NCBI GenBank assembly: GCA_902802115.1
Contig: CADCKW010000005.1
Span: forward strand, 1 to 64,000
Origin: an uncultured Pseudomonadota bacterium
GTDB taxonomy: Bacteria; Pseudomonadota; Alphaproteobacteria; Rs-D84
Direction: 5' to 3'
Length of the DNA: 64,000 nt
Made by a program: the position numbers and the translations under genes. The notes under the pieces were generated by a model, which did not search any database, had not been told where the DNA came from, and saw nothing but the letters and a program-made list of their open reading frames with translations. Shown here piece after piece: positions 10,664 to 60,092 of this stretch; positions within the stretch are counted from its first letter, which is position 1, and each line of letters begins with the position of its first letter.

Positions 10664-12838
10664 ATGAAAAACAAAAAAATGACAGATGCATACAAAAATG
10701 CGGTTGGAACTGTGTTTTTGCTTGCTGGTGCTTTCTTTATTTGTTCGACATTGTTGTCAATGCGGACTGTGTTGGCTGACCCAATTGCGCCCACAACAAA
10801 TGCGGCCTCTGGGGTGAGTCCTGCGCGTACCGCGGCGGCGCGTAATTCTTCGAAATCGCGTTCGACAACGGCGTCACGTTCGACTGTATCACGTGCAACT
10901 GCTACGCGCGCGCAAACAAATAATGCATCGCGTAATATTCGCACACGCGCAATCAGTGTTCGCAATGTAAATGATGGTTCTGTCACAGACGTTCAAACAG
11001 CGGTGCGTTCAAACGCAACGCGTTCTGTGGCGCAAAGGGCGAATAATACAACAATGCGTGGTGTGGCGGCGCGTAATAATGCATCGCGTGTTGTTGCGCG
11101 GACTGCAACAACACCGTCGCGGGTGAGTCTGGTTGGAACAGGTATGCGTGCGTCTATGGGAAATACTGTTAATGTTTCATATTTATCCAGTAAATTATAT
11201 ACTGGCAATTATTCAAACATTATTGATTCAACAACTGGTTTGATTTCTGCCGATGCATACAGTGCATGTTTGGAGGGTTATTATACATGTATGGACGAAA
11301 TCTGCACCGCGCGCAGTGATGCCAAGGGACGTTGTTCTTGCGCGGGTCGTGCGACAAATTTCTTGGCCGCCGAAGAAGCTTTGGACAAAGCAAACGAAGA
11401 ATTGATTCAGTTGTCTGGTCAATTGGCTTTGTTGGTTTCAACCAAGGGCAAAGATGTCAGTCAGGCTTTCCAATTAACCGATGCTGAAAAGGTTATGAAT
11501 TGCGTATCATATAAAGATATGATTGCACAATATGGTTCCACATCGGCAACGGCTGATGCAACCAAGGTGACAGAATGGTGTTATTCACATGGTTTTTATA
11601 CCGCAAATTGTGCTCAACCGTCGTATTGTACAGATAATACAGTTGATGGTTTTAATATAGATAATATTGATGGTTCGTCATCTGATATTTTGGCATCGTT
11701 AAAGGCATGGGCAAATGCCAAAGATTTGGCAAAACAATTTACAAACAACGATTCTAATAATTTGGTTGCGCAATACACAACAATATCTGGGGTTGTAAAT
11801 GGTTTGTCTGGTATTACTGAAAATGTTGATGCGTCCCAGGCTGCGTTGGATACATTGGCGAACAAATGGGGTTATGAATTGTTTGAATATGCACATAACA
11901 ACGTTTGCGGTCGTGTGTTGGATTCTTGCTTTAACGGTATTTACGAGGCTTGCGGCACACCACCATCTGGAACGGATTCCGCAGGTAATAAAATTGGTAA
12001 ATGTGCGAACGGTGCATCGACATCATGCCCATATAATTACAACAGTGCGATTTCTGTTAAAACAACCGGTGACGGTTCTGGCGAGGTTGCATTAAACGAA
12101 CGTGGTTCAACCGGTTCAACAACATCGACATCGGCGACATGTTTTGGTTATACATCTGCAAACGGTGATCCTTATGCGTCTTTGCGTGGCCCGGTTGCTG
12201 ATGCGCGTCGTTCAATTATGCAAAAATATTTACTGGACGCGAACGCGGCATGTGACGCATACGGCAACGCGTTAAAGAATACCGCACAAAACATCAATTA
12301 TCAAAAAATTGCGGCTGAACAGGCATTGCGTCAAAAACGTATGGACTTCTATAACGAAGAAGAAGAAAAAATCAAAAATGACGCGGTTGCGGCAATCACA
12401 AACTTTAATGAATGTATCAGTGAAATTTGGGATTGTTATAACGAAAATGCGGACGAAGAAAACTGGACAACGGCGCGTATAAAAACATATTGTGCCCAGG
12501 TTTCCAATGTTCCACATTGTTATGAACCGATGATTTGTAATATAGCACCATTGCAATTCAAAAAGATTATTGATGTTCCAGATGATACAAGATGCACTTT
12601 CAGTGTGAATCGTGAAGAAAACACATGTCGTAATTTGGTCACATTAAATGAAATCTTGTATGGTGCGACCAAGAGTGATTATGTGAGTTCTGAAAACTGG
12701 GACGAGGTTATAAACGGAACTTTGACCAAAAATTCGGCAGAAATTCGTGAAGGTTGCTTGAAAAAGGCATTGGATTGTGGGGATTCATCAACTGGCGCCG
12801 AATGTCTGCGTAAATGGGTAAAACCGTCAAATAATTAA
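10664..12838 (+). CDS. large secreted Cys-rich protein, family member A
   Basis: A 724-residue protein; RBS TAGGAGAG sits 8 nt before the start. A signal anchor covers residues ~10-38 (cleavage possible after VLA). Residues 45-155 are low-complexity, dominated by Arg, Ser, Ala, Thr and Asn. Then comes C202-x6-C209-x4-C214-x9-C224-x-C226, followed by a helical segment (AEEALDKANEEL). Same spacing is found in the proteins at 16099 and 58621. Further Cys are spread over the C-terminal 450 residues, suggesting a disulfide-stabilised extracytoplasmic protein. A charged coiled coil lies around residues 555-590. No known family recognised. Confidence 0.85.
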   Translation: MKNKKMTDAYKNAVGTVFLLAGAFFICSTLLSMRTVLADPIAPTTNAASGVSPARTAAARNSSKSRSTTASRSTVSRATATRAQTNNASRNIRTRAISVRNVNDGSVTDVQTAVRSNATRSVAQRANNTTMRGVAARNNASRVVARTATTPSRVSLVGTGMRASMGNTVNVSYLSSKLYTGNYSNIIDSTTGLISADAYSACLEGYYTCMDEICTARSDAKGRCSCAGRATNFLAAEEALDKANEELIQLSGQLALLVSTKGKDVSQAFQLTDAEKVMNCVSYKDMIAQYGSTSATADATKVTEWCYSHGFYTANCAQPSYCTDNTVDGFNIDNIDGSSSDILASLKAWANAKDLAKQFTNNDSNNLVAQYTTISGVVNGLSGITENVDASQAALDTLANKWGYELFEYAHNNVCGRVLDSCFNGIYEACGTPPSGTDSAGNKIGKCANGASTSCPYNYNSAISVKTTGDGSGEVALNERGSTGSTTSTSATCFGYTSANGDPYASLRGPVADARRSIMQKYLLDANAACDAYGNALKNTAQNINYQKIAAEQALRQKRMDFYNEEEEKIKNDAVAAITNFNECISEIWDCYNENADEENWTTARIKTYCAQVSNVPHCYEPMICNIAPLQFKKIIDVPDDTRCTFSVNREENTCRNLVTLNEILYGATKSDYVSSENWDEVINGTLTKNSAEIREGCLKKALDCGDSSTGAECLRKWVKPSNN

Positions 12839-13198: not shown

Positions 13199-13264
13199 TT
13201 GCATAAAGTTTTAGACAAAATGTCAAAAACATTGAACAAGAACAAACAGGGTAAAGGTTAAAAA

Positions 13265-13564
13265 ATGGCAAATTTTGCAATCTTTCAAACCGGTGGCAAA
13301 CAATATCGTGTCCAGGCTGGCGATACTATCAAGGTTGAAAAAATCAATGCTGAAAACGAAATTGAATTCGACAAAGTCTTGATGGTTGGCGACAAAATCG
13401 GTAATCCATATGTTGATGGCGCACGTGTTATTGCAACGGTTGTTGAACAAAAACGCGATGACAAGGTTTTGGTTTTTAAAAAGAAACGTCGTCAAAACTA
13501 TCGTCGCACACGTGGGCATCGTCAATATTTGACGGTTTTGAAAATCAAAGAGATTAGGGCTTAA
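13265..13564 (+). CDS. rplU: 50S ribosomal protein L21
   Basis: A 99-residue protein, near the usual ~103. N-terminus [16 protein letters not shown] is typical of L21, which binds 23S rRNA in the large subunit. The basic C-terminal part with [16 protein letters not shown] is the family's RNA-binding stretch. RBS GTAAAGG lies ahead of the start. It is followed after 12 nt by rpmA, the usual L21-L27 operon, with a promoter at 13171 and terminator at 13858. Confidence 0.98.
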
Positions 13565-13576
13565 GGAGTTTGAACT

Positions 13577-13843
13577 ATGGCACATAAAAAAGCTGGTACC
13601 TCTACTTCGAACGGACGCGATTCTGCGGGACGCAGATTGGGCGTTAAAAAATCCGGTGGTGCGCGTGTTATTCCTGGCAATATCATTATTCGCCAACGTG
13701 GCACTGCATTTCATCCTGGATTAAATGTTGGTATGGGTAAAGACCACACAATATTTGCCAAGGTCACAGGAACTGTGAAATTCAAACGCGGATTAAACGA
13801 CCGTAAAACAGTTTCCGTCGTTCCTGATGAAACCGCAAAATAA
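13577..13843 (+). CDS. rpmA: 50S ribosomal protein L27
   Basis: An 88-residue protein with the canonical N-terminus [20 protein letters not shown]. This flexible tail reaches the peptidyl-transferase centre and no Firmicute-type cleavable leader is present. RBS AAGGAG precedes the start. The central [15 protein letters not shown] is conserved. It is co-transcribed with rplU. Confidence 0.98.
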
Positions 13844-13857
13844 TTGTTAAGATAAAA

Positions 13858-13889
13858 AAATCCCCCGGCACCCGCCGGGGATTTTTTTA
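13858..13889 (+). terminator. terminator of rplU-rpmA
   Basis: CCCCGGC/GCCGGGG stem with ACC-type loop followed by ATTTTTTTAT. The minus strand also has an A/T run, so it may act on both strands. Confidence 0.85.
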
Positions 13890-15599
13890 TAAAGTGCAAA
13901 GCACAATTGATGCAGGATTGATTCCGCCCCATCGCGACCCTTTAATTCCGCCCCATCGGGGAGGTGGACCTTGCTGTAGCGAAGCGAAAGCAGGTGGAGG
14001 GGGTATCAGGAACCCTCCCCACCACTTCGTGGTCCTCCCCTCCGCCGGAGGGGAATCATTGACACCATTTGCCATCGGGGCTGTTCTGCATAAAAAAACA
14101 CCCAGAAAATTCTGGGTGTCATTTATTTGGAACCAAGCCTTTTTAAGTTTAATGGGAGTTGAATTCGGGGCCAATTCCAAATAAAACCGTGTGTTTGTTG
14201 CAAAATCATAAAAACCTATTGCACCGTCACTATTGCGTTTTGCCGGAACATAATCCATGACCAATTCGTTATTCATATACATTTTGGCATAATAAACCGC
14301 ATTGCCGGCATTAACCCTGTCGTTTCTTTGATTTCCAAACATCCACAAAGGCAAGGTTTCGGCAGAAAAAGTATATTCTTTCGTCTGTGTATTCGATTCA
14401 TTTGTTGCGTCATCATGAACATATAATATTCCATGCCCATTCAACATTGTTGATCGCACAGTTAATATATTACTGGTTCTGGTAATTGTGCTGGTCGCAG
14501 TGGCATTATTTGGAAAAGAAAAACCTATTTTGCTACCAGAGGTTGCACCAGCTAAACCATGTATCACAGCATCGGCTGGGTCTCTGCTTTGCCATATATA
14601 CCAAGAGCCACCAGATGGTTTTACTTTTATTTCCATGACAATGTTATCTACATTTGGAATAATTCCTGTGTTTAAATATGTGTTGTCATTGTTTGTCACA
14701 TACTCTAACTCTGTAAATCCGTTGGGCAGGCGGTTGGCAGATTCAATAATCTCGTACCAATGGGGTTGGCCGTCGTTGTCTTCAACCAGCAGGCATTTTT
14801 TGCCGGCGGGGCATTGTTCGTCCGGGCGGGTTTGTTTGTTCGCCTGCAAATCCGCAATGGCTTTGGTTTGATTGATAGTATTTGTCACGACCGACCGTAT
14901 CGTTGCAATCGTGTCGTTCAATTCAGTCACCACAGGGCTAAACCGCGCCGAATTATACGCCGTCGTGGCAATTTTGATTGGGGATTGGCACCATAAAAAC
15001 TGATTAACACCATCAACTATCAATGAAGTATTGGTTAAATCCCATTCTGCACGGGAATATTGGCCCCCAGTCCTGCCTCTTTCAACACCAATAGCAAAAT
15101 ATGTGTTTCCTGCTTTTTCTGTACTATCTATACCACCGATTTCGACACCATCAACTTTAAAACCGTATCTGGTTCCATTAAAATAAATTTCGTTATCGTA
15201 TGTCACACTATCTTGATAACGAAATGATATACTTGTATCGTTCCATACACCAGCATTCCAAGTATCATTACCTGCACCAAAACTAAATCTTGGACGTCCT
15301 TCGCTATTTATAATGGCTTGCACATTTGTTCCGCCGTTACCAGACATAATGCCTTGGTCATTAGTTGCAGGGTGATATGTAAATCTCCACTTAAAACTCC
15401 AAGTATTTGCTGTGGAAAAATTTACATCGTTTTGAGTGCGAATATAATTCTGTGAATTGCCTGTTTTGTAAATCCCTGCACTTGTAATTGTTGGTGTGCC
15501 AGATGTATATATGCTGGAAATATTAAAGTCACAAGTTTCAGCGAATGCCGATGACATCGACAGTATCAACCCAAACACTAAACTTAAAAGTTTTTTCAT
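13887..15599 (-). CDS. secreted LamG/phage-tail-like protein with repeat-derived C-terminus
   Basis: A 570-residue protein. Start 15599 follows GGGGATTTC and begins a signal peptide (MKKLLSLVFGLILSMSSAFA). Residues 21-205 look like a concanavalin/LamG-type beta-sandwich. Residues 207-286 (IKIATTAYNSARF to PHWYEIIE) form a module nearly repeated at the end of the protein at 60093. Residues 290-480, beginning LPNGFTELEYV, resemble LamG-like domains of gut phage tail or surface proteins. The last ~55 residues, rich in Pro, Gly and Trp, are encoded by GC-rich repeats and are probably an acquired read-through tail. It is the only minus-strand gene between 5 and 18 kb. Confidence 0.75.
   Translation of the reverse strand: MKKLLSLVFGLILSMSSAFAETCDFNISSIYTSGTPTITSAGIYKTGNSQNYIRTQNDVNFSTANTWSFKWRFTYHPATNDQGIMSGNGGTNVQAIINSEGRPRFSFGAGNDTWNAGVWNDTSISFRYQDSVTYDNEIYFNGTRYGFKVDGVEIGGIDSTEKAGNTYFAIGVERGRTGGQYSRAEWDLTNTSLIVDGVNQFLWCQSPIKIATTAYNSARFSPVVTELNDTIATIRSVVTNTINQTKAIADLQANKQTRPDEQCPAGKKCLLVEDNDGQPHWYEIIESANRLPNGFTELEYVTNNDNTYLNTGIIPNVDNIVMEIKVKPSGGSWYIWQSRDPADAVIHGLAGATSGSKIGFSFPNNATATSTITRTSNILTVRSTMLNGHGILYVHDDATNESNTQTKEYTFSAETLPLWMFGNQRNDRVNAGNAVYYAKMYMNNELVMDYVPAKRNSDGAIGFYDFATNTRFYLELAPNSTPIKLKKAWFQINDTQNFLGVFLCRTAPMANGVNDSPPAEGRTTKWWGGFLIPPPPAFASLQQGPPPRWGGIKGSRWGGINPASIVLCTL
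13919..14055. repeat. GC-rich stem-loop repeats, one forward and one inverted unit
   Basis: A short fragment (13919-13928) is followed by a forward unit at 13942-14008 with the same ACCTTGCTG...CAGGT inner hairpin as the unit at 13043. An inverted unit lies at about 14008-14055. All of it is read as coding sequence by the 3' end of the gene at 13887-15599. Confidence 0.75.
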
Positions 15600-15708
15600 G
15601 AAATCCCCTTTTTTTCTCTCGTTCCTTTTTTGGTATTTTTTTGCGGAATACAAAAAAATACCGTCAACGGAAGTTGAGCGGTCGGGGTGTTCAAAAAATC
15701 AAAAGCAA

Positions 15709-16098: not shown

Positions 16099-18354
16099 AT
16101 GAGGAAAGTTTTTTTATGTTTTTTGGCGGCAATTATGTTTGCGCCCAATGCCATGGCAGCATTGACGGGTGGTCGCGCAATACAAAAAACTGAAAATTCT
16201 GCTGATAATGTGCGTGTGTCTGGAAATATTCGTGATGGGGTTGGGCGCAATGTAAATAACACCACAACCCGCACAGAAAAAAGTATTTCGCGCCCTGACA
16301 CAACATCACGTGTCGCATCGCGCAGTGCCGAAACCGTTGTGCAACGTGGCAATGTCCAAAATGTTGTGTCACGTGCGACTGATAATACCGCGTCGCGCAT
16401 AACAAATTCTGTAAAACAGCGCACCATAAACGCATCGTCAATTGATTCTGGGGCATTGATGGCACCACAAATGAGTTTCGCACCGCGTTTTGATGAACCA
16501 ACGCGCAGTGTTGCAAATCGTGCCGCAACCAAGACTGAAACCAAAAAAATTACTGCCGAAGATGTATCGGCGGCCAAAGATTTATTGGAACAAACCGCTG
16601 GATTAAATAAATCATGCCAAGAGCAATATAATGAATGTATGGACCAATTCTGTGCCGTTGTTGATACAAACCAAAAACGGTGCAGTTGTTCGGCAAATTT
16701 ATCAAAATATGCCGGGGTCCAAGATGCTGTGAACAAGGCAAATGATGAATTGAACGAGGTTGCCCAACGTATCCGCTATGTTGGTCTGTCGGCTGACGAA
16801 ATCCGCGCGATTATGAGTGAAACTGCCGCCGAGGCTGAATTAGACAATACACGTGATACATCGGAAACACGCAGTATGTTATCGAAAATCGAAGATTTGT
16901 TGCAAGACCCAACCACACGCACAACCAATGTCGCCAGTAATGATTTTGGTTTGGATTTAGACTTGGATTTTTCAGATTCTGGTGCAGATATATTCAGTTT
17001 GGATTTTTTAAACACTGATAATGATTCTATTTCCAGCAAACGCGGAACGGCACTGTATAATGCCGCAAAAAAACGTTGCAAAACAATTTTAAATAACTGC
17101 ACAGATGTTGGCGCAACATCTAATCAAATCACCGGAAATTATGATTTGGCGATCGATAAAGATTGCATCGCATATGAACAGGGTTTGAAAAAAATGAATC
17201 AAACACTGCAATCCAATGTTCGCAGTGCCGGATTAATGTTGCAAAAGGCGCGTTTGGCGGTGTTGCAAAATAAAAATCAATATGATGCCAAGGGCTGTAT
17301 TGGTGCATTGGAAACATGTATGACCGATGATATGGTTTGTGGTGCGGATTATTCAAAATGTCTGGACCCAACCAAACGTTATATCGACGAAAACGGCAAG
17401 GTTGTTTTGGGACAAGATATTACCAAGATAACTGATTTTATGGACGCGTTTAATGCTGCGCAAATTGATGCCACTAAATTATCTGCATCTTTGTCCGTCA
17501 ATATGGACGATACTTGCAAAAATGCACCAAACAACGATGGAACATGCGTTATAAAATATTTAATGACCAAAATCGGTACCGGTGCAACTGTCAAAGACGG
17601 TGGATTGTGTCGTGCGGTTTTGGATAAATGCCAACAACATACATACAGTTCTAATGAAAAATATAATCCATATAATGATGTTGTTGTAAATTATATTCAA
17701 CGCGCAATGGTGAATATTCGTTCTGCGCAACAAAATATTATTTCGGAATACGCATCAACCTGTATGACCGATGTTGCCGCATGTTATAATCAACAGGTCA
17801 CCCAGGTAAATTCATGGTCGTCGGTTGCATCTGTATCCAGTATCAAAGGTGTAATGACCGGCGCGTGCCGTAATGTTGCATTGACTTGTGGGTATGCGGT
17901 GTTTGCAAATATGTGTTCCACAGACATAAATAATATCAACAGTTGGGTATTGTCGAAAAAATGCAACGATGCAGATGCAAACGATACATCTGTTTGTGTT
18001 GCATCTGGAACCAGCACAGATACATGCACACCATGTGACGAGAATAATCAGCCAACATGTATCGAAGGGATTTCTGAAATATTCTATCAATCATTACTTT
18101 GCCCAGAAAGTTCTATGTATGATAAAAATTGTTCTTCTGGCGTGTCCAATAATCGCACAATCCAAGGCTGCGTGAATACACAATGCCGTTGCAGTGCCGG
18201 ATATACCGCATGGAACGGTTCGTGCCTGGCGACATGTAAAAGCACAGAATATCGTAATGATTATGGCACATGTACGGCAACATGTGAAAGTGGCAGCCCA
18301 TCAGGTGCAAGCACAACCAATGGCGTGTCATTGGAAAACAATACATGTAATTAA
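16099..18354 (+). CDS. large secreted Cys-rich protein, family member B
   Basis: A 751-residue protein with signal peptide MRKVFLCFLAAIMFAPNAMA. Residues 25-145 are a basic Arg/Ser/Thr/Asn-rich low-complexity region. The family motif is C173-x6-C180-x4-C185-x9-C195-x-C197, followed by the helical stretch VQDAVNKANDELNEVA. An acidic Asp-rich segment lies around residues 290-315. Many paired Cys follow, ending in EGF-like turns (CRCSAGYTAWNGSC, about 695-710). The gene starts 12 nt behind a TATAAT and has no Shine-Dalgarno. Its stop overlaps the end of convergent dnaQ by 4 nt. Function unknown; likely periplasmic or surface-exposed. Confidence 0.85.
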   Translation: MRKVFLCFLAAIMFAPNAMAALTGGRAIQKTENSADNVRVSGNIRDGVGRNVNNTTTRTEKSISRPDTTSRVASRSAETVVQRGNVQNVVSRATDNTASRITNSVKQRTINASSIDSGALMAPQMSFAPRFDEPTRSVANRAATKTETKKITAEDVSAAKDLLEQTAGLNKSCQEQYNECMDQFCAVVDTNQKRCSCSANLSKYAGVQDAVNKANDELNEVAQRIRYVGLSADEIRAIMSETAAEAELDNTRDTSETRSMLSKIEDLLQDPTTRTTNVASNDFGLDLDLDFSDSGADIFSLDFLNTDNDSISSKRGTALYNAAKKRCKTILNNCTDVGATSNQITGNYDLAIDKDCIAYEQGLKKMNQTLQSNVRSAGLMLQKARLAVLQNKNQYDAKGCIGALETCMTDDMVCGADYSKCLDPTKRYIDENGKVVLGQDITKITDFMDAFNAAQIDATKLSASLSVNMDDTCKNAPNNDGTCVIKYLMTKIGTGATVKDGGLCRAVLDKCQQHTYSSNEKYNPYNDVVVNYIQRAMVNIRSAQQNIISEYASTCMTDVAACYNQQVTQVNSWSSVASVSSIKGVMTGACRNVALTCGYAVFANMCSTDINNINSWVLSKKCNDADANDTSVCVASGTSTDTCTPCDENNQPTCIEGISEIFYQSLLCPESSMYDKNCSSGVSNNRTIQGCVNTQCRCSAGYTAWNGSCLATCKSTEYRNDYGTCTATCESGSPSGASTTNGVSLENNTCN

Positions 18355-21172: not shown

Positions 21173-23050
21173 TTATAATATTCTATCTATTTCGGTCTGC
21201 AATACATCTAATCCTGATGATGGCATTGTGCTGACAGGGACAATTGGTGTTGCGCCTATTGATGCCCTCAGTGTATTTGTTCTGGCGGTTTGATCAGCTG
21301 CCGATACAGTGTCTGTTTTTGTGATAACAACAATATGTTTGATTGTGGTTAAACCATTTCCATACGACGATAATTCATTACGTATATCATTATATTCTGC
21401 CACCCAATCTGTTTTGGTTCCGTCTATTATATACAGCAACAATCTGGACCTTATGGCATATATCAAGAAGTCTGTTCCGTATGCGGTGTTTAATGATGGC
21501 AAGCAAACAGTTGTGAATTTTCCACCAGGTGTGGATAAATCACCTGTTCTTATTGGGCGAGAACTGTATGGACTGTTTATTATGTTATCGCGATTAGTTG
21601 TCATTGCAAAAAATAACGAATATTTACCCACCAAACGCGAACCAACAATGGCGATATCGTATTCCAGGTGTTCATCGCCACTCGATGAACCACCGGCGCC
21701 ACCAGTCCCCCCAGAACCACCTGTTTTGCCACCAGCCCCAGAACTGCTGCCTGACGAACTATTCGACCCACTGTTTGAATTGTTGGATTTATTTTTTGTT
21801 TTTTGAAATTTTGACCTGATTAAAGACCATAATTTTTTTGCGTCTTTTTCTAAATTTTCGCCCCATGATGAATCTATTTTACCACCCCATTGTTGTGCCA
21901 AATTTTTCGCTTTGTCCGCCATATAGCACACCAACAACAAAGTCAAAACCAATACCATAGCCCCCGCAAAGCCGTTTAATTCATCGGCTGATAAAATTTT
22001 ACCAGTTGCCGGGTCTATAATAAATGCCAACAGCGATGTTGAAACACTGATTGCGACCGCCAAACATACAAAATATAAAGCCGCCGTCACAACACGATTG
22101 ATTTGCGTCTTTAAATCTTCGGCTTTAAATATTCCCAGAAAAGAATTAAACAAATCGCCGGCAACACCTTTGTATTTTGTCTTGGCAGTTGTTTCGGCAA
22201 TTGCGGTAAATGGCAACAACATCACAGACAAGAATAAATCAGCGATAACCCCCAAAGCAATTACCAAAAATTTCCAGATACAAATAATGGACAGGTATGT
22301 CACATATAAACCAATCGCCGCAGAAAACAAACTATGCCCAACGGCGCTGATAACCCATTTCCAACCGATTTCCATTGTTGTCACAAAGAAACTGGACATT
22401 TGACTGGGGATACATAATAAACTGGCGGCGGCATCTGCGGTAATGGTCAGGTTTGATGGTGCATTTGTTGCAACATATTGATGAATTGCCGGACATATAT
22501 CTGGCACAGAAAAACCAGCAACCGATGTCACAGTTGTTAAAATAACATTTGCAACAACATTACCAATATAAACCACCGGCATCATAATCATAGCAAACGC
22601 TTTGTCCAGACCGAAATTTAATGCAATCAGCCAAACAGAAATCCAAATACCTTTGATTAAAATATTGCGCACAGTTTCTTTTGCATCGCCCCCAGAACCA
22701 ATTAAATTATACGCTTCGAATGCGACCCAAAAAGCATACGCGATTAACATAAATAATATTGCAAATCTAACCAAAGGCGTGCCAACCGCGTTTATAACAG
22801 TTGTCATACCGCCCATAAATGCCAGCCCCAGTTTTGCATCGATTGGGACATAATTGTCGCCAACAGGTGTGGCGGTTGGACCAAAATTATTTAAATCTTG
22901 GATAATAGATGCGGTCACCAATTCGCGATTTGCCTCGGTTGCCCAAGAACCGTATTCGCCAACATCACCAACGGCAAAACCAGGCATTGATATAAATATT
23001 GCAACAATCGCAACCAAGACTTTACGGAGAAAATCATTTATTCTTGTCAT
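21173..23050 (-). CDS. VirB6/TrbL-like membrane protein fused to a degenerate Obg-like GTPase domain
   Basis: A 625-residue protein. A signal peptide or first helix covers residues 8-27. Hydrophobic helices at about 85-110, 130-180, 225-280, 318-345 and 360-378 form a VirB6/TrbL-like polytopic part. Residues 418-459 are a Ser/Gly/Asn linker. Residues 463-625 form a P-loop GTPase-like domain: IVGSRLVGKYS (468-478, Tyr where Ser/Thr is normal after GK), FLIYAIRSRLLLYIIDG (528-544) as in Obg proteins, G4-like TKTD (577-580) and G5-like STMPSSGLDVL (607-617). The DxxG Switch II motif is not recognisable (CLPS). GTP hydrolysis is doubtful; binding may remain. It overlaps the upstream gene by 4 nt and is the last of four co-directed VirB6-like genes. 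Confidence 0.75.
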   Translation of the reverse strand: MTRINDFLRKVLVAIVAIFISMPGFAVGDVGEYGSWATEANRELVTASIIQDLNNFGPTATPVGDNYVPIDAKLGLAFMGGMTTVINAVGTPLVRFAILFMLIAYAFWVAFEAYNLIGSGGDAKETVRNILIKGIWISVWLIALNFGLDKAFAMIMMPVVYIGNVVANVILTTVTSVAGFSVPDICPAIHQYVATNAPSNLTITADAAASLLCIPSQMSSFFVTTMEIGWKWVISAVGHSLFSAAIGLYVTYLSIICIWKFLVIALGVIADLFLSVMLLPFTAIAETTAKTKYKGVAGDLFNSFLGIFKAEDLKTQINRVVTAALYFVCLAVAISVSTSLLAFIIDPATGKILSADELNGFAGAMVLVLTLLLVCYMADKAKNLAQQWGGKIDSSWGENLEKDAKKLWSLIRSKFQKTKNKSNNSNSGSNSSSGSSSGAGGKTGGSGGTGGAGGSSSGDEHLEYDIAIVGSRLVGKYSLFFAMTTNRDNIINSPYSSRPIRTGDLSTPGGKFTTVCLPSLNTAYGTDFLIYAIRSRLLLYIIDGTKTDWVAEYNDIRNELSSYGNGLTTIKHIVVITKTDTVSAADQTARTNTLRASIGATPIVPVSTMPSSGLDVLQTEIDRIL

Positions 23051-24546
23051 GATACAATCCCCTGGTCTTTCATAGATTTAACTGCGGCATCGAACCATTT
23101 TCGTGGGGCGCGCAAAGCCTTGGCACCCAAATCGTATGTCCATTTACCAATATCGAATTTTTCACTTGTTGATAAATCTGTTTCTTCGGTATGTGCCAAT
23201 GGAATTTTAACTTTGCCATATGGTAATAATTTATCAATTCTGGGCACCAACACATAATAATAAGCAAATATCAAACCGAACATCAGCAGCAAAAATGTCC
23301 AACCATCTTTCAAGAAATCAAACGCATCAGGATATACCTGTTCGATTTGTGCCTTTTGTTCCAAGAAACAAGGTTTGAATAAATCTGCATCAACCAAACC
23401 ATCGGCATTTTTGGATTCAGCCTCGCACTTTGCAAAAGCATTCATAACATATTGTGCCTGGGGCGATGTTTTTCCTGACATTTGCATTTCGAACATCGGC
23501 GGTAAAATCGAAGTATAACTATCTGTGGGACCTGGGAATAATGAATCCGCTGCATAATAAACAATTGAAAATAATATAGTGATTTTTAAAGATATCGATA
23601 TAATCGCCACCGCCGCTGAAACAACGGTCCCCAATGCTTTGCGAAACAGTCCCGATGCGATTTTCCATACCTGTTCATATGCCGCGGCGGCAATCAAGAT
23701 AGGCAAAAATATAATTACAAAAACGACTTTGAATAATACAGAAAATATTTGAAAGAATAAATCAAATCCAACAATTAAAAACGCGATAACCAATAACATT
23801 CCAGAAATCCATGTCATTATACCGCCACCCAATCCCAACCAAGCATAGTTCATCAATGCAAAACCGCCCGCCGCGCCAGCCAACATAACGGCATATAAAT
23901 TTCCTAAAACACACATAAACGCACCTGACAAAGCCGACATCGCGCCAGACAATTCGGTTGCACCCAAAATTACATTGCAATCGGTTGCCGATGCGACACC
24001 TGTGGCGGTCATAGACAATATTGAACCTATGTATAAAATGGGTGAAATTAAAATTTCGGAAACAACTTTCAAAGATTCTGTTCCGCCGGCACTCAAAACA
24101 CCGATGGCGACACCTGCAATTAAAATACGCACACCCAATTTCCATACGGGGTCGAACCATTTTTTGAAATCCAAATCATTTGCAGATGTTGAATAACTGG
24201 CGTTCTTTTTTGATGCGTCCCAAATAAATTTAATAGCAGATAAAAACATATAAATCGCAAAACCTGCCGCCATCAATATCCACAAATTATCAACAATACC
24301 GGTCCAAAACATTTCGGACGCCTGTCCCAATATATTTAACAGTTCGACCAAATATCCGCCTAAAAATAAATGTCCCAGATTTGAAATATCGCCATCTGCA
24401 CCCACAGAATGCATAAAATTATCCAAAGATGTATATGTTAATGCATCACCACCAATTGTCGATGTTAAATACCAAATTCCCAACCCCAGTGCGATTGCGA
24501 CGCCCAGTATTCGTAAAACTATCGAAATTATTTGCAACTTCTTCAT
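23047..24546 (-). CDS. VirB6/TrbL-like type IV secretion membrane protein
   Basis: A 499-residue polytopic protein. The N-terminal helix is followed by a periplasmic loop and about seven further helices, densest at residues 185-320. A second soluble loop (about 340-410) contains two Cys. The C-terminal ~85 residues are cytoplasmic and charged. Helix layout and the Gly/Ala-rich central helices resemble VirB6/TrbL inner-membrane channel subunits. It overlaps the next gene by 4 nt and lies 12 nt behind the 24559 gene. No VirB4, VirB8 or VirD4 gene is nearby in this window. Confidence 0.6.
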   Translation of the reverse strand: MKKLQIISIVLRILGVAIALGLGIWYLTSTIGGDALTYTSLDNFMHSVGADGDISNLGHLFLGGYLVELLNILGQASEMFWTGIVDNLWILMAAGFAIYMFLSAIKFIWDASKKNASYSTSANDLDFKKWFDPVWKLGVRILIAGVAIGVLSAGGTESLKVVSEILISPILYIGSILSMTATGVASATDCNVILGATELSGAMSALSGAFMCVLGNLYAVMLAGAAGGFALMNYAWLGLGGGIMTWISGMLLVIAFLIVGFDLFFQIFSVLFKVVFVIIFLPILIAAAAYEQVWKIASGLFRKALGTVVSAAVAIISISLKITILFSIVYYAADSLFPGPTDSYTSILPPMFEMQMSGKTSPQAQYVMNAFAKCEAESKNADGLVDADLFKPCFLEQKAQIEQVYPDAFDFLKDGWTFLLLMFGLIFAYYYVLVPRIDKLLPYGKVKIPLAHTEETDLSTSEKFDIGKWTYDLGAKALRAPRKWFDAAVKSMKDQGIVS

Positions 24547-24558
24547 TGGTTTTCTTTT

Positions 24559-25767
24559 TTATTTCCTGTTGTCTGCAATCGTTTTAATACCTTTTTTAAT
24601 TCCGTTAAACATACTGTTTGTGGCATTCATTATTGATTTACTTAACCCTTCGCCAACTTTGGGTTCTGCGGCTTTGGTATCAAACATACCCAAAATGATA
24701 TCAGTAATTTGTGGAATTTTTCCATAAATAAATGTTAAAACATAAACTAAAACAACCACACTGGTCAGTGTAATATCATATTGCCCTGTGACCCCCAGAT
24801 CCCCAGAATAAATTTCACCGTTCATAATTGCCGCCAATAATGCGTCAAAACTGTTTGTTCCGTCATTGGGATCTGTAAAGAATCGTGCAATAATAACTAA
24901 AATAACAGTATATGTAATTACCGCCGAGCCCAAAGTTATAATTGCTCCTATTAAATTTTTAATTTGTTCAACACCAACACCTTTGCCGAAATTTTTTATC
25001 CACCCTAACCAAGACGGAATATCTTTGTCATTAACATCTTGAAATGCCGATGCCATCAACGATATTGGAAAGAAAAATGCAAACATAGCCATTGCGATAA
25101 TAACATCTGCAAAATAACATAAAAAATTAAAGAACATTTTGAAAAACGCGAAAAACAAATATAACCCAACAAACGCTAAAATTAAATGCTTTATAAATGC
25201 ACCAATGCCGAAAAACATGTCCCATGAAAAAGCGGAATCCAACATTGCGACCCCCAGATTCATAAAGCCTTGGAATTGTGTGATTGTCACCTTGGCAATA
25301 TCGATAATTGCAATACGCAAATCATCGCGGAAAAAACCATTTTGGACAGTTGTTTTTAATGGTTGATATGTCACATGTTCTTCGATGATATCGGGTGTAG
25401 ATTTTAACATTGCGGTCGCGTATGTTTGTGTCACATATGCCACCGGTTCAAATGTAATCGTTGTAATGAAACGTGGCAACATAACACCCATGCCTAAAAA
25501 AGCCATGGCAAATATAGAATTGATAAATACCGGTCGCATAGACTTGCTGAACCAACCGTCTTGGAAACCGGTGGTAATATTTTTCCAAACAGCCCCAAAA
25601 ACATACAAACTGAAAAAAGCCATAAAAACGACAGTACATATAAAAACAAATTTGGGGTATGCACTCGCAGCGGCGGCAGAAATAATTTGAAACATGCGGT
25701 CAAATATTGGGCAAGACCAACATTGCACAGTATTAGATATAAAGATATGTCCTAATTCTGTTATCAT
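24559..25767 (-). CDS. VirB6/TrbL-like membrane protein with N-terminal CWSC motif
   Basis: A 402-residue polytopic protein. Near the N-terminus it has QCWSCPIF (residues 15-22), closely matched by TCWSCQLF in the gene at 27096. Helices lie at about 40-60, 80-105, 195-250, 285-300 and 335-355. A short charged tail ends the protein. The CxxC pair could be a redox or metal site in an otherwise VirB6-like protein. Its start codon overlaps the stop of the 25767 gene by one base, indicating co-translation. Confidence 0.6.
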   Translation of the reverse strand: MITELGHIFISNTVQCWSCPIFDRMFQIISAAAASAYPKFVFICTVVFMAFFSLYVFGAVWKNITTGFQDGWFSKSMRPVFINSIFAMAFLGMGVMLPRFITTITFEPVAYVTQTYATAMLKSTPDIIEEHVTYQPLKTTVQNGFFRDDLRIAIIDIAKVTITQFQGFMNLGVAMLDSAFSWDMFFGIGAFIKHLILAFVGLYLFFAFFKMFFNFLCYFADVIIAMAMFAFFFPISLMASAFQDVNDKDIPSWLGWIKNFGKGVGVEQIKNLIGAIITLGSAVITYTVILVIIARFFTDPNDGTNSFDALLAAIMNGEIYSGDLGVTGQYDITLTSVVVLVYVLTFIYGKIPQITDIILGMFDTKAAEPKVGEGLSKSIMNATNSMFNGIKKGIKTIADNRK

Positions 25768-27035
25768 TATTTACCCCGAAATACCTTCCATAAATTTTGT
25801 GCGGTTTTCGCATTAGACTTTGTAATATCCCAACCTGTTTTAACATCTTTTTTAACCGAATCATATAAATCTGTTCCGCCTTTGCCGACATAACTTTTTA
25901 ATTTGTCGCGTGTTATTTCAAAAACTTTATTCATCAAAAAGAAAGTCAGCAAACAAGACAACCACAATACAGAATGTTCGCCAAATCCACTGGAATTTGC
26001 ACTGGCAGACGGCACACTGGAATATGCGGTGCCACCAACCGACGAAACGAATATAGTGCTGTTCCATTGAAACAGTGCGCTGACCAATGCGATATTTACA
26101 CACAACATAAACGCACACGCAATCATGGTGACAATCATTTTTTTCAATGCGTCAATAATACCTGAAAAAGCCGGCCAAATATTAAACCATGGGTCACTGG
26201 GTTTAACCACCCATGCGGCAACATTAAACGGATATAAAATCAAAGCAATTCCAAAATCAAAAATCGCCTGGATAATCAATAATGCCATAAAAATATTGCA
26301 TGCTGTAAATGTTCCCACCATCAGCAACCCAGTAATAATATTCATAAAACTTTGTCCGCCATTGTGTGTCATCAGTGATGTTGGCAGTCCGCTGGAAATA
26401 TATTTAAAACCACGTTTTACAACGGCATTATTTGCCACCGATAAAACATGGACTGGTTCGATTAAATATTCGCATGATTGTTTGCTAAGCCAGCCTTGTT
26501 CCAATAAATTTTCTGGGCATTTGATGTCAATACTGCTTTGCAGGTTGATATTGCTGGACGCTTTTAAAATTTCGGTGGTGTAAAGTGACCCAAAATGCAT
26601 AAACGGGTTTATTACGGCATTTGCCAAAAACTGTGGTCGCAACGGTAATAAAACCAATACAGCCACCAATACGCGAATTCCAGGTTTAATTAAATCTTCA
26701 CCAATTTTTGTTGGTGTTGCATTATCTGCGGTGACTGATGGGGCCTTGAACCCAAATGTTTTTAACCAGAATTTTGGAATATATAATTTTATCAAATACG
26801 ATGCGATATAAAATGCAACAAATCCCCAAATCAGTAAATATATAATTCCATCACCATGACCAACAAAATACGCGTATGTTCCATTTGCAACAAACATAAA
26901 CGCGTCCAGAACAATTGGCACCAATCCAGATATATCCAAAGAATCAATATTGATTATTGATGCGTTTGCAACCCCCGGCACAAATGCACCCAGAAAACAA
27001 ACAATTGCGGCAAAAAATTTTTTTATAAAATTCAT
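25767..27035 (-). CDS. VirB6/TrbL-like membrane protein, first gene of the minus-strand set
   Basis: A 422-residue protein with a probable signal peptide (residues 1-25). Hydrophobic helices occur at about 38-56, 63-82, 120-140, 230-265, 285-315 and 355-368. The tail from 370 on is charged. Topology and neighbours support VirB6/TrbL relatedness, although I see no single diagnostic motif. A -10-like TATAAT lies about 20 nt upstream of the start on the minus strand, so this gene probably opens the four-gene operon 25767-23047-21173. Confidence 0.55.
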   Translation of the reverse strand: MNFIKKFFAAIVCFLGAFVPGVANASIINIDSLDISGLVPIVLDAFMFVANGTYAYFVGHGDGIIYLLIWGFVAFYIASYLIKLYIPKFWLKTFGFKAPSVTADNATPTKIGEDLIKPGIRVLVAVLVLLPLRPQFLANAVINPFMHFGSLYTTEILKASSNINLQSSIDIKCPENLLEQGWLSKQSCEYLIEPVHVLSVANNAVVKRGFKYISSGLPTSLMTHNGGQSFMNIITGLLMVGTFTACNIFMALLIIQAIFDFGIALILYPFNVAAWVVKPSDPWFNIWPAFSGIIDALKKMIVTMIACAFMLCVNIALVSALFQWNSTIFVSSVGGTAYSSVPSASANSSGFGEHSVLWLSCLLTFFLMNKVFEITRDKLKSYVGKGGTDLYDSVKKDVKTGWDITKSNAKTAQNLWKVFRGK

Positions 27036-27082
27036 CTTTAATAATTGCTATCTAATTATATCATATTTTGATAAATTTATGG

Positions 27083-27088
27083 TATAAT
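27083..27088 (+). promoter_or_regulatory. -10 box 7 nt ahead of the 27096 start
   Basis: Perfect TATAAT whose end is 7 nt from the ATG at 27096. There is no Shine-Dalgarno and no good -35 at standard spacing. Confidence 0.5.
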
Positions 27089-27095
27089 TAAAATC

Positions 27096-28433
27096 ATGAA
27101 TTGGTTAAAAAAATTTTGGATAACATTTGTATCGTTCTTGCCATTATCCGCAGGGGCGGTTTCGCCGTTTTTAATTGGTGGTGCGGTTTTGGGGGCTGGT
27201 ATAATTGGTTATTCTGTTTATCGCAGTGTTGCACCGGTAAATTTGGCGGACGCGTTATCGTTTTTTTCAACATGTTGGTCGTGTCAGTTATTTTCGGATA
27301 TTGTTGCAACAATGTCGCATATTTTACCGGTTGCATACAAAGCATTGGGTAAAATTATAATTCCGTTTTCGATTGCATTAACTGCGGTTTGGTTTGCGTG
27401 GCAATTATTGGAAATTTATACAGGTTCCAAATCCAAAAGTGATATTGCGTCCGCCCCCGCGGTTGCAGATGGTTGGAATATTGGGGCAAAGTTTGGTATG
27501 CACACGATAAAATTGTTGTTTGTTGCGGCATTGTTGGCGGTGCCATTACCGCGTTTAATTTCGTCTGTGATTGTGGAACCAATATTTGATATCGGTTTAT
27601 CTATGAATTATACGATGTCTGCGGTTGATTCGCGTGCAAATTATGCGAATTGTATAGTTGCCACCGCGGTTGCCGACCGCCAAAGCATTTATGCCGATAC
27701 AAATAACGGTGGTATAAACGCATTTGCACCAAAATTCCGTCATAACCTGACATGCCAAATTGCAAATGTTCATCAAATGACAGGTTTGGGTATGACGGTT
27801 GGTTGGACAATGTTAAACATGGCGTTTAATTCCCAGTATATGCATAAAATATTATGGGGTGTGCCAATCTTTCCAAATATTCCGCTGTTTTTAACAGGCT
27901 TGTTGATAACTTTACTATTTTTTGCGGCATTGTTGCCGATACCGTTGTATTTTTTGGAAATATTTATGAAATTGGCTGTGGATTTTCTGTTGTTGCCACT
28001 GACTTTGCTGGAATGGTTGTTCAAAGATTGGACAGTAATAAAAATGGGTGACAGAAATATTCAAAAAACCATAGACGATGTTATATCTGGGGCATTGGGA
28101 TTGGCAATGACGGGGATATTTATAACATTTGCGATTATGGTTTTGAATGCAGTATTTTCTGGTTGGACCGGTGCCGATGTTATCAAAACAGCCATAGCCC
28201 AAAACGATTCGCAATATTTGATAGATAATTTGCTGCAAACAACCAGAAATACTGCATTGGTGACGATTATTTTGATGGGGATATTTATGACAATGTTTAT
28301 GGTAATGATACCGGCATTGATAAAATCTTTATTTAACATTGAAATATCGGATAAATACTATCAAACCGCGAAAAAAGACACGAAAATTTTGTGGGACGAC
28401 ATAAAAAAAATATGGAATTCCGCAAAAAAATAA
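27096..28433 (+). CDS. VirB6/TrbL-like membrane protein with CWSC motif, divergent from the set
   Basis: A 445-residue polytopic protein. The N-terminal helix is followed by a Gly-rich helix (FLIGGAVLGAGIIGYSV) and FFSTCWSCQLF around residue 57-67. This resembles the start of the 24559 protein, so the two are probably paralogues. Helices follow at about 85-105, 145-165, 225-300, 335-355 and 385-410. It is transcribed away from the other four genes but clearly belongs to the same group. The mRNA is predicted leaderless. Confidence 0.6.
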   Translation: MNWLKKFWITFVSFLPLSAGAVSPFLIGGAVLGAGIIGYSVYRSVAPVNLADALSFFSTCWSCQLFSDIVATMSHILPVAYKALGKIIIPFSIALTAVWFAWQLLEIYTGSKSKSDIASAPAVADGWNIGAKFGMHTIKLLFVAALLAVPLPRLISSVIVEPIFDIGLSMNYTMSAVDSRANYANCIVATAVADRQSIYADTNNGGINAFAPKFRHNLTCQIANVHQMTGLGMTVGWTMLNMAFNSQYMHKILWGVPIFPNIPLFLTGLLITLLFFAALLPIPLYFLEIFMKLAVDFLLLPLTLLEWLFKDWTVIKMGDRNIQKTIDDVISGALGLAMTGIFITFAIMVLNAVFSGWTGADVIKTAIAQNDSQYLIDNLLQTTRNTALVTIILMGIFMTMFMVMIPALIKSLFNIEISDKYYQTAKKDTKILWDDIKKIWNSAKK

Positions 28434-53050: not shown

Positions 53051-54196
53051 ATGAAAACCGCATATTTTACATTTTTAATAATCGCAGGTCTAATGCCCAA
53101 ATTTGCATTTGGCGATGTATTTATTCCAAACTATGCGGTGCCTTTTCCGCCGGTTCAAACACAAACCATGCCCCAACAAACACAATCCGGGCAAACTGGG
53201 GGAACATCATTATTGACCGCATCAAATTTTCCAAAAACATTTAACGATGTCGATTTTGCTGACCGTATTGCTGTCAAACGCGCTGCGTATGTTCCATTTC
53301 AAGACATGGACGCTTATAAAGGTCTGGTTGTTGCCGGCGAAGAACATTATACAGAACGCCAACTGGCCGAATTAGAAATTCAACGCCAACAAGATTCTTT
53401 AAGCTTGCCCAAAGCCGAATATTGTGACAAATACCCGACCGACGACGAATATTGCAGTCCTGATGAATCAACTTTGGCGGACACAATAAAAATCGGTGAT
53501 GCCCCGTCCCCAGATACAAAACAGCCATTTACCCCAGTTGGTTCTTTTTCAGGTCGCACAATTGGTGGCGGCGCGGTTATTGCACGCAATGATATTCACA
53601 ATGGTTCTTGTTATCCGGCGGCAAAAAGTAAAGTCTTTAAAAATATGGTTATGACAACCGGTCAATATGAAACCAGCCTGCCCCCATTTGAAAAGGCAAT
53701 GATTACTGTATTTCGCAAAGAAGGCAAATGTGGCGAAATCAAAGGCGACCCATGTGGATACACATGTTATGGCATTGGGTCTGGGCCAAATTGTATGGGA
53801 CACGATATTGATGTAAAAAACTTGACACGTGCAGGTGCCGAAAAATTATATCACGACAGAATGTGGGCAAAATATCACTTTGACAGATTGCCCGATGTTA
53901 TTGCCGGCGATATATTTTTGGCATCTATGGCCAGTGGCCCCTGCACCGCGATTAAACAATACCGCGGATTTTTAGGGTTAAGTAAAAATTGCAATATTGA
54001 TAACGATGTCGTTCGTGCAACTGAAAATTATACTGGCGATATTCATAATGATTGGCTGGACGTTCGTCAAAAATTCTTGATAGATGTTGCCGAACGCAAA
54101 TATCAAAACAGGGTTTTAAAAGGCTGGATGAACGCGATACAATTAAAACGCGAAAACGGCTGTCATGTAATTCCCACCGACCCATTATACAGATAA
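53051..54196 (+). CDS. secreted GH108-like N-acetylmuramidase
   Basis: A 381-residue protein with a signal peptide (MKTAYFTFLIIAGLMPKFAFG). Residues 25-190 are a Pro/Gln-rich and acidic spacer of unknown role. Residues ~205-380 resemble phage-type glycosyl hydrolase 108 muramidases: ITVFRKEGKCGEIKGDPCGYTCYGIG corresponds in part to the catalytic EGG...D.GG..T..GI segment with Glu224. LYHDRMWAKYHFDRLPD and a PG_binding_3-like end follow. Extra Cys suggest disulfides in the periplasm. It could remodel or lyse peptidoglycan, be a domesticated endolysin or serve as a VirB1-like enzyme for secretion. Confidence 0.7.
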   Translation: MKTAYFTFLIIAGLMPKFAFGDVFIPNYAVPFPPVQTQTMPQQTQSGQTGGTSLLTASNFPKTFNDVDFADRIAVKRAAYVPFQDMDAYKGLVVAGEEHYTERQLAELEIQRQQDSLSLPKAEYCDKYPTDDEYCSPDESTLADTIKIGDAPSPDTKQPFTPVGSFSGRTIGGGAVIARNDIHNGSCYPAAKSKVFKNMVMTTGQYETSLPPFEKAMITVFRKEGKCGEIKGDPCGYTCYGIGSGPNCMGHDIDVKNLTRAGAEKLYHDRMWAKYHFDRLPDVIAGDIFLASMASGPCTAIKQYRGFLGLSKNCNIDNDVVRATENYTGDIHNDWLDVRQKFLIDVAERKYQNRVLKGWMNAIQLKRENGCHVIPTDPLYR

Positions 54197-58620: not shown

Positions 58621-59598
58621 ATGAAAGGGTTTTTCAAAATTTTATTTGCTGTTATATTATGCGCACCAACGGTTGCCGATGCGCGTGCGGTTGTATCACG
58701 CGCGGCACGTGCGACAAACACACCAACATCGGGATATACATATAATTATATGTACCCGTATTTGAACAACCAAATGCGCACAACTTTAAACCCCGGCAAC
58801 GCAAATGCCCAAAGTACCAGTCCAATCAATGTCGTTGTAAAAACAACCCCTTTACCCGACAATAATTCAACCCGTCGTGTTATCGCGCGCAGTGGTCGTG
58901 CCGCAACAACCCCACGACAAAATTCAACATACACACAAAATCCGGTCATTCGCAGTATGCCAAACATGCCGGCCATACCAACAAATTTAAACAACAACAC
59001 CAATCGACGTGTATCACCACGCGGTTCAATTGCACGCGCGACACGCACAGACCCCAACACCGCAAATACTGGCACAATAAATTATTCGACATCAAATTCG
59101 AATTTTGTATCTGCAAATCGCTGTATGGCGGATTACACAGAATGTATGAATTCGTATTGTGTGCGTGCCGACACCGAATACAACCGTTGTTTTTGTTCAT
59201 CTAAATTATCCCAAATTGAATCGACATACCAACCGCAAATAGATTCTTTGATAAAACAGATTTTACGTGCGAAACAAACTGGCGATTGGACAGATGCCGA
59301 AATGGCTGAATATTGGAACGACATGATTGGGCAATATGTCGGTGAAAACACTTGGACGAAATTGGACGATGCATTAAATATTGATTGGCCCAGTGCCACA
59401 GATCGCATGGACGGTCAAAACGCATATTTAACCGGACATCAATATTGTGTGCAACATTTGCGCAATTGCGCCTATGCGGTTCCAAATATGCGTGATGTAT
59501 ATCGTTCTGAAATTGCGCGCGATTGTGCAGCATACGAAAAATCGTTGGATAAATTAAAGACCGCACTGGAAACGGCATTAAACACATATAACAATTAA
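58621..59598 (+). CDS. secreted Cys-rich protein, family member C
   Basis: A 325-residue protein with signal peptide MKGFFKILFAVILCAPTVADA. Residues 22-160 are basic Arg/Thr/Asn/Pro-rich low complexity, with RAVVSRAARATNT and RRVIARSGRAATT repeats. The family motif is C168-x6-C175-x4-C180-x9-C190-x-C192, spaced exactly as in the proteins at 10664 and 16099. A helical domain with four more Cys follows. It is the smallest of the three and may show the minimal unit. A TAAAAT box ends 11 nt before the start. No known family. Confidence 0.8.
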   Translation: MKGFFKILFAVILCAPTVADARAVVSRAARATNTPTSGYTYNYMYPYLNNQMRTTLNPGNANAQSTSPINVVVKTTPLPDNNSTRRVIARSGRAATTPRQNSTYTQNPVIRSMPNMPAIPTNLNNNTNRRVSPRGSIARATRTDPNTANTGTINYSTSNSNFVSANRCMADYTECMNSYCVRADTEYNRCFCSSKLSQIESTYQPQIDSLIKQILRAKQTGDWTDAEMAEYWNDMIGQYVGENTWTKLDDALNIDWPSATDRMDGQNAYLTGHQYCVQHLRNCAYAVPNMRDVYRSEIARDCAAYEKSLDKLKTALETALNTYNN

Positions 59599-59796: not shown

Positions 59797-59933
59797 GTAT
59801 AATCAAAATATGGCAAAAAGGTGCGGATTTCCGCCAGTTTATAAAATCGAGAGAGTTGAAAATTTTGACTGAAAAACGGCAATTTTTACGAATCGCAAGA
59901 AAATTTATGTGCAACATTGGTTGCACAGAGTGG

Positions 59934-59998
59934 CAATTCCGCCCCTGTGGGGAGGGGGACCGCGGAGCCGTTTTGGCGAGCGGTGGAGGGGGTGTTGT
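59934..59998 (+). repeat. GC-rich stem-loop repeat, copy with ACCGC...GCGGT hairpin
   Basis: ATTCCGCCCC...GGGGAGGGGG frame with inner ACCGC(GGAGCC...GGCGA)GCGGT and GGAGGGGGT end, as at 9832 and 13043. A perfect GTGCAAC/GTTGCAC hairpin (59909-59926) lies just to its left. The 59599-60092 stretch is otherwise filled by the element at 59651 and the repeat at 60020. Confidence 0.75.
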
Positions 59999-60019
59999 AA
60001 AAAGCATCAAATCAATGCC

Positions 60020-60076
60020 AAACCTGGATCCACGTTCGTCGCGTTGCGACTCACTTTCGACTTTGCTCAGGATGAC
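60020..60076 (+). repeat. second dispersed-repeat type (CTGGATCC...GGATGACATG)
   Basis: CTGGATCCACGTTCGTCGCG, then TTGCGACTCACTTTCGACTTT and a GGATGACATG end. The pattern looks like dispersed repeats that read as LDPRSSRC...LSTLLRMT in many genomes. It sits just ahead of the 60093 start. Only one copy was seen in this window, so the repeat status rests on general familiarity. Confidence 0.4.
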
Positions 60077-60092
60077 ATGCCCGGGAAATGCG

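Follow-up and report, generated by a model that had tools for sequence, protein, structure and literature searches.

We describe here a previously unnamed and new family of cysteine-rich proteins, eleven of which are encoded by the ~950-kb genome of an Enterousia-type member of the Alphaproteobacteria, where they account for ~2.8% of the bases. We consider the chances about even that they form a scaffold of the envelope or surface, held together by disulfides and made up of eleven non-interchangeable subunits or layers; the location, the disulfides and the scaffold role are what we infer, while the disulfide-rich envelope protein as such is a known kind.

The window, that is, the whole 64-kb stretch of DNA that was analysed, carries three members (P0001, P0002 and P0003) together with LSU rRNA, 5S rRNA and one tRNA, and is therefore ordinary chromosome. 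The three open reading frames are present, and each encodes the five cysteines C-x6-C-x4-C-x9-C-x-C, at residues 202-226 of P0001, 173-197 of P0002 and 168-192 of P0003, with identical spacing, a Met after the second Cys and an Arg before the fourth, exactly as a sequence-only reading had described. The corresponding DNA pattern gave three matches in the window and none in each of 100 dinucleotide shuffles; across the whole genome (949,878 bases) it gave 14, i.e., the eleven members and three spurious matches, as compared to none for a reversed control pattern. The features of the three genes are as follows.

10664-12838, + strand: family member P0001 (724 aa, 27 Cys), with signal peptide, basic stalk, motif and a divergent Cys-rich core; orthologs in 41 named loci, core dN/dS 0.09-0.13
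10781-11230, + strand: basic low-complexity stalk of P0001 (approximately residues 40-189); net charge +18, 75% R/S/T/N/A/V
11267-11341, + strand: five-Cys motif C-x6-C-x4-C-x9-C-x-C of P0001, from the motif pattern against shuffles
16099-18354, + strand: family member P0002 (751 aa, 37 Cys), the core reference; 80 named orthologous loci, core dN/dS 0.02-0.09
16099-16158, + strand: putative signal peptide of P0002 (residues 1-20, ending ...FAPNAMA and followed by A), read from the sequence; hydrophobic start in most ortholog N-termini
16159-16578, + strand: basic low-complexity stalk of P0002; net charge +8, 37-42% identity as compared to 84-86% in the core
16615-16689, + strand: five-Cys motif of P0002, from the pattern and the paralog alignment
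16615-17166, + strand: eight-Cys unit of P0002 (C173, 180, 185, 195, 197, 327, 334, 356); all eight in every paralog group, the P0001 group being without the last
17296-17631, + strand: second CX6C region of P0002 (C400/407/414/421 with C504/511); C407 and C504 jointly absent in 27/27 members of one clade
17761-17889, + strand: third CX6C pair of pairs of P0002 (C555/562 with C590/597); kept in 75 orthologs and nearly all paralogs
18184-18351, + strand: small beta-rich, EGF-like Cys tail of P0002; predicted strands, pLDDT about 80-90
58621-59598, + strand: family member P0003 (325 aa), the minimal form with stalk and eight-Cys unit only; orthologs of 316-379 aa in other genera
58687-59085, + strand: basic low-complexity stalk of P0003; net charge +13
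59122-59196, + strand: five-Cys motif of P0003, from the motif pattern against shuffles
59446-59526, + strand: second half of the eight-Cys unit of P0003 (C276, 283, 302), from the paralog alignment

Each member appears to be composed of a putative signal peptide, a usually basic and fast-evolving stalk and an acidic core. Stalks are T/A/S/R/V/N-rich and probably disordered, with net charges of -4 to +18 over the eleven members; two of the eleven are not clearly basic (-4 and +3) and one is just 26 residues long. Every core is acidic, with net charges of -8 to -37. The composition and basic charge claimed for the stalks of the three window proteins hold (+8 to +18), but their length is about 135-169 residues rather than the 100-140 initially proposed. 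Distant families of the order show a similar stalk chemistry with a different sequence, family f3 for instance having RSGRSG repeats. The proteins show no recognisable lipobox, beta-barrel or transmembrane anchor. An envelope or surface layer, as had been supposed, is plausible.

The five cysteines had been regarded as a module in their own right, a view that the paralog alignment does not bear out. They belong to a longer conserved unit of eight cysteines and form only its first half; in this unit the motif is followed, usually after 80-140 residues, by C-x6/8-C...DC. In the longer members this unit stands at the head of an extended homologous core in which C-x6-C pairs recur; P0001 and P0002, the long proteins of the window, have about 400 residues of homologous core in common, and P0003 is a minimal version, with the first eight-Cys unit only, whose short form is kept in other genera. 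C-x6-C accounts for 59 of the 273 later Cys intervals, against 8.8 expected (maximum of 18 in 500 shuffles), cysteine makes up 3.8-6.2% of core residues, and 20 core cysteines are kept at 96-100% in the P0002 orthologs (n=75).

A search of relatives with an 11-row profile found further members in 189 of the 190 genomes of the order, mostly with 10-12 copies per genome in the home family, where every sampled genus is represented, and with 0-10 copies in genomes of the five remaining families. Outside the order, no match was obtained among the sampled 385 class and 398 phylum genomes, an absence that is not absolute, these being samples. The five class matches of the 11-row profile all lie inside the order, as do the five that a broader 41-row profile gave in the same 385 genomes, and the two phylum matches of the latter (2/398) both belong to the home genus. 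P0002 matched no plasmid or phage record by tblastn. P0002 alone served as query for distant and named relatives, and the named ones are uncultured animal-gut Alphaproteobacteria, including Candidatus Enterousia scatequi and Ca. Enterousia intestinigallinarum.

Pfam, NCBIfam and PHROGs returned nothing meaningful for the eleven members except for a Listeria-Bacteroides (InlB-type) repeat at the C-terminus of one of them, a domain usual in cell-surface proteins, and PDB sequences gave no match by phmmer (P0002) or by profile (A6). We found no description of the family in a literature search that lay outside most subscription papers and outside catalogues of unnamed protein families. The proposal of a new exported family is supported, no known family, PDB sequence or fold having been matched. 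Further Cys-rich proteins of the CX6C type, without the exact motif (L032:245-1849, L032:2624-4852 and L033:14250-15512), are probably divergent relatives, and the true family size may exceed eleven.

In a maximum-likelihood tree, 81 members fall into eleven orthologous groups, nearly all single-copy over seven genera; most gaps fall in the deepest genus (G065) or in incomplete genomes, and each of the seven genera tested has orthologs. It follows that the expansion is old and stable: the family is indeed expanded, as had been supposed, but through eleven old, separately conserved paralogs and not through a recent or variable copy number. In G065 the orthologs of P0003, P0001 and P0002 and another member lie head to tail, which suggests a tandem cluster as the ancestral arrangement. 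P0001 and P0002 are usually adjacent in the home genus, and members are otherwise scattered over the genome, with no tra operon location. Between P0001 and P0002 lies an ORF of 163 aa (window 13223-13714, - strand), and 48 of 80 relatives have a similar sequence on the same strand at this position. Core dN/dS of 0.02-0.13 indicates strong purifying selection, the stalk and C-terminus being mostly faster; judged by dN/dS, the family genes are functional.

The manner in which cysteines are lost bears on how they may pair. C407 and C504 are both absent in the one clade listed above and both present elsewhere except in the rewired P0001 group, and on the tree this loss happened once. In 13 readable outgroup proteins, inspected by eye, C173 and C334 are missing from the same three, and C195 and C356 from the same two; the P0001 group keeps C195, misses C356 and shows a rewired later Cys pattern. 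AlphaFold models P0002 (residues 153-751) as largely helical: pLDDT is about 90 through much of 400-562, confidence is low in large parts of the N-terminal eight-Cys unit, and the tail is small and beta-rich; the P0001 model (pLDDT 62) is too poor for structure search. Taken together, co-loss and predicted helices suggest antiparallel twin-CX6C helical hairpins held by disulfides, with small counts, losses that may be single events and the P0001 group as an exception. Foldseek gave no match for the P0002 model in PDB and BFVD at E<=0.001, and VIA-align returned only single long helices (Z<6), which are not informative; the Cys tail showed a weak, non-significant overlap with receptor Cys-rich domains in both Foldseek and VIA. 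The absence of a Foldseek relative does not prove a new fold.

As for the machinery of oxidation, the genome encodes a DsbA-like protein, and DsbB and VKOR models found no match in it. Two genes upstream of a member, a multi-membrane protein of 163 aa with CAVC (CxxC) and further cysteines (L030:5934-6425) is, as judged by eye only, a possible candidate for a non-canonical oxidase of the DsbB/VKOR type. Shortly after a family member, the genome encodes an exported protein of 375 aa (L034:17652-18779) that contains 37 Cys and an ephrin-receptor-like repeat.

These observations allow us to propose a model in which the signal peptide would direct export past the inner membrane of the Enterousia-type alphaproteobacterium. 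Within the acidic helical core, C-x6-C pairs on neighbouring helices would be disulfide-joined into hairpins (twin CX6C), the likely pairs in P0002 numbering being C173-C334 with C180-C327, C195-C356, and C407-C504 with C400-C511. Beyond the inner membrane, the eleven ancient paralogs, separately kept, would build an oxidised scaffold in which none of these subunits or layers could replace another. The basic stalk would probably tether the protein to something anionic (LPS, peptidoglycan or another cell), with the variable C-termini facing outward.

A scaffold of this kind is argued for by the presence of eleven members in as many mostly single-copy groups, the restriction to one order and the strong selection on the core; by the 20 conserved core cysteines, the CX6C enrichment, the co-loss of cysteines and the helical model; and by the contrast of basic stalk and acidic core, the DsbA-like protein and the InlB-type repeat in one member. 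Counted against it are the missing DsbB/VKOR match, the low-confidence model of the eight-Cys unit, the fact that the C407/C504 loss is one event, the Cys exceptions of the P0001 group, the two non-basic stalks, the 26-residue stalk and the lack of a visible anchor.

In CHCH proteins (twin CX9C), found in the intermembrane space of mitochondria, a helical hairpin is stapled by a pair of disulfides that link two C-x(n)-C helices. As a matter of principle rather than of homology, this stapling may be shared; the family differs in its CX6C spacing, in helices up to 130 residues apart and in proteins that range from 325 to 1112 aa. None of the eleven members matched CHCH in Pfam, and their dominant spacing is C-x6-C, not C-x9-C. 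The closest functional analogue, not homologous, would be the chlamydial Cys-rich outer membrane complex, which is disulfide cross-linked (PMC3561449). Its OmcB/OmcA proteins (Pfam Chlam_OMP6) resemble the family in having a signal peptide, a basic N-terminal region and a Cys-rich body; unlike them, the family has a helical CX6C core and eleven paralogs, as compared to one or two, and hmmscan of all eleven members gave no Chlam_OMP6 match. A further difference is that the host lineage of the family encodes RodA, MreB and MrdA (PMC12306168), so that peptidoglycan is expected. The genome of this alphaproteobacterium also encodes proteins resembling outer-membrane porins (L034:11656-13269 and L029:2034-3506), which match the Pfam model Pom (Protochlamydia outer membrane protein).

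OmcB is, in addition, a surface-exposed adhesin by virtue of its basic N-terminus (PMC2229832), and the family may likewise consist of eleven different adhesins for a partner-dependent life, with the basic stalk and variable C-termini binding to a foreign cell (of a gut microbe, a protist or the mucosa) and the disulfide core serving gut stability only. We consider this rather unlikely, as a whole. The suggested partner dependence of genomes without standard uptake systems (PMC12306168), the InlB-type C-terminal repeat and the faster evolution of stalk and C-terminus relative to the core are all in its favour; however, adhesin sets usually turn over, as this genome's separate 'YIESTGTQYIDTG' family appears to, whereas all eleven groups are almost single-copy across genera and the core is under strong purifying selection.

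It is quite improbable that some or all paralogs cap or extend a type IV secretion channel at the outer membrane, in a role like that of the Cys-rich TraN/TraU of F-type conjugation systems. Members share with TraN/TraU a large size, a high Cys content, export and, in some loci, the proximity of secretion-type genes: one member has VirB8-, VirB9 (CagX)- and VirB10 (TrbI)-like genes at a distance of about 3-7 kb, in about 48-51 of 80 loci five multi-membrane proteins in a conserved row are encoded 3-12 kb away from P0001 and P0002, and P0001 is linked to this row in another genus too. The nearby genes are, however, of the VirB8/9/10 type, their linkage is weak and was not upheld when checked in other genera, most members are scattered, and neither Pfam nor NCBIfam matched TraN in any member. 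Moreover, the multi-membrane proteins have no VirB6/TrbL match, and two more genes, for products of 226 and 697 aa that look by eye like an exonuclease and a helicase, lie in between.

These secretion-type genes deserve mention in their own right. With the VirB8-, VirB9- and VirB10-like genes (L029:11853-17001), a genome of 950 kb encodes a type IV secretion system. The five consecutive multi-membrane proteins (625, 499, 402, 422 and 445 aa; window 21173-28433) keep their order in about 50 relatives and look VirB6/TrbL-like, as in rickettsial type IV systems with several VirB6 genes, the first showing a weak GTPase-like C-terminus; a VirB6 identity found no model match, even with 33 homologs.

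A regular S-layer-like surface array made mainly of one or a few members, as first suggested, is very unlikely: the family is exported, multi-copy and universal in its home family, but such a layer normally has one dominant protein, here eleven different paralogs are each maintained, and neither Pfam nor NCBIfam detects an S-layer anchoring domain. Least probable of all is that the cysteines bind metal or buffer the redox state instead of forming structural disulfides, since the high Cys content of the cores and the missing DsbB or VKOR are set against a C-x6-C spacing unlike the CxxC/CxC typical of metal sites (with one C-x-C exception), the loss of cysteines in specific pairs, export and the even number (8) in the minimal form.

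The genome also encodes a second expanded exported family, with copies at window 13887-15653 and 59856-61373 and at L031:2692-4281, L031:13285-14718, L035:4834-6393, L036:4103-5560 and L036:9831-11849. At least one 'LPAGYTELEYIESTGTQYIDTG' module is found in most of these copies. Most copies also have in common a 'IKIATTAYNSARFSPVVTELN...TCPAGKKCLLVEDNDG' segment, whose near-identity suggests recombination or recent duplication. A secreted protein with a GH108 (lysozyme-like) domain is found at window 53051-54196.

Enterousia has been placed in the order Rs-D84, with genomes of about 0.75-1.0 Mb, no respiratory chain and no standard transporters, and is possibly partner-dependent (PMC12306168); judging by the named matches of P0002, this genome most likely belongs to the same order. 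The papers naming Rs-D84 that were consulted settle no host. Separate versions of the cysteine-rich proteins are kept in every sampled genome of the Enterousia family and none was found in a sampled genome outside the order, which makes them good candidates for an outer coat or partner-contact machinery. More tentatively, and in our view doubtfully, the eleven paralogs could be subunits of one order-specific extracellular apparatus of twin-CX6C hairpins, through which transporter-poor bacteria would contact and feed on a partner cell. The family can serve as a taxonomic marker and can be targeted in localisation and metaproteomic work; its helical design, not found among solved structures, comes with a disulfide map that can be tested. 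Occupying nearly 3% of the genome under strong purifying selection, and present in nearly every genome of its order and in none sampled beyond it, the family provides a handle on the lifestyle and contacts of uncultured gut alphaproteobacteria with genomes of ~1 Mb and no standard uptake systems.
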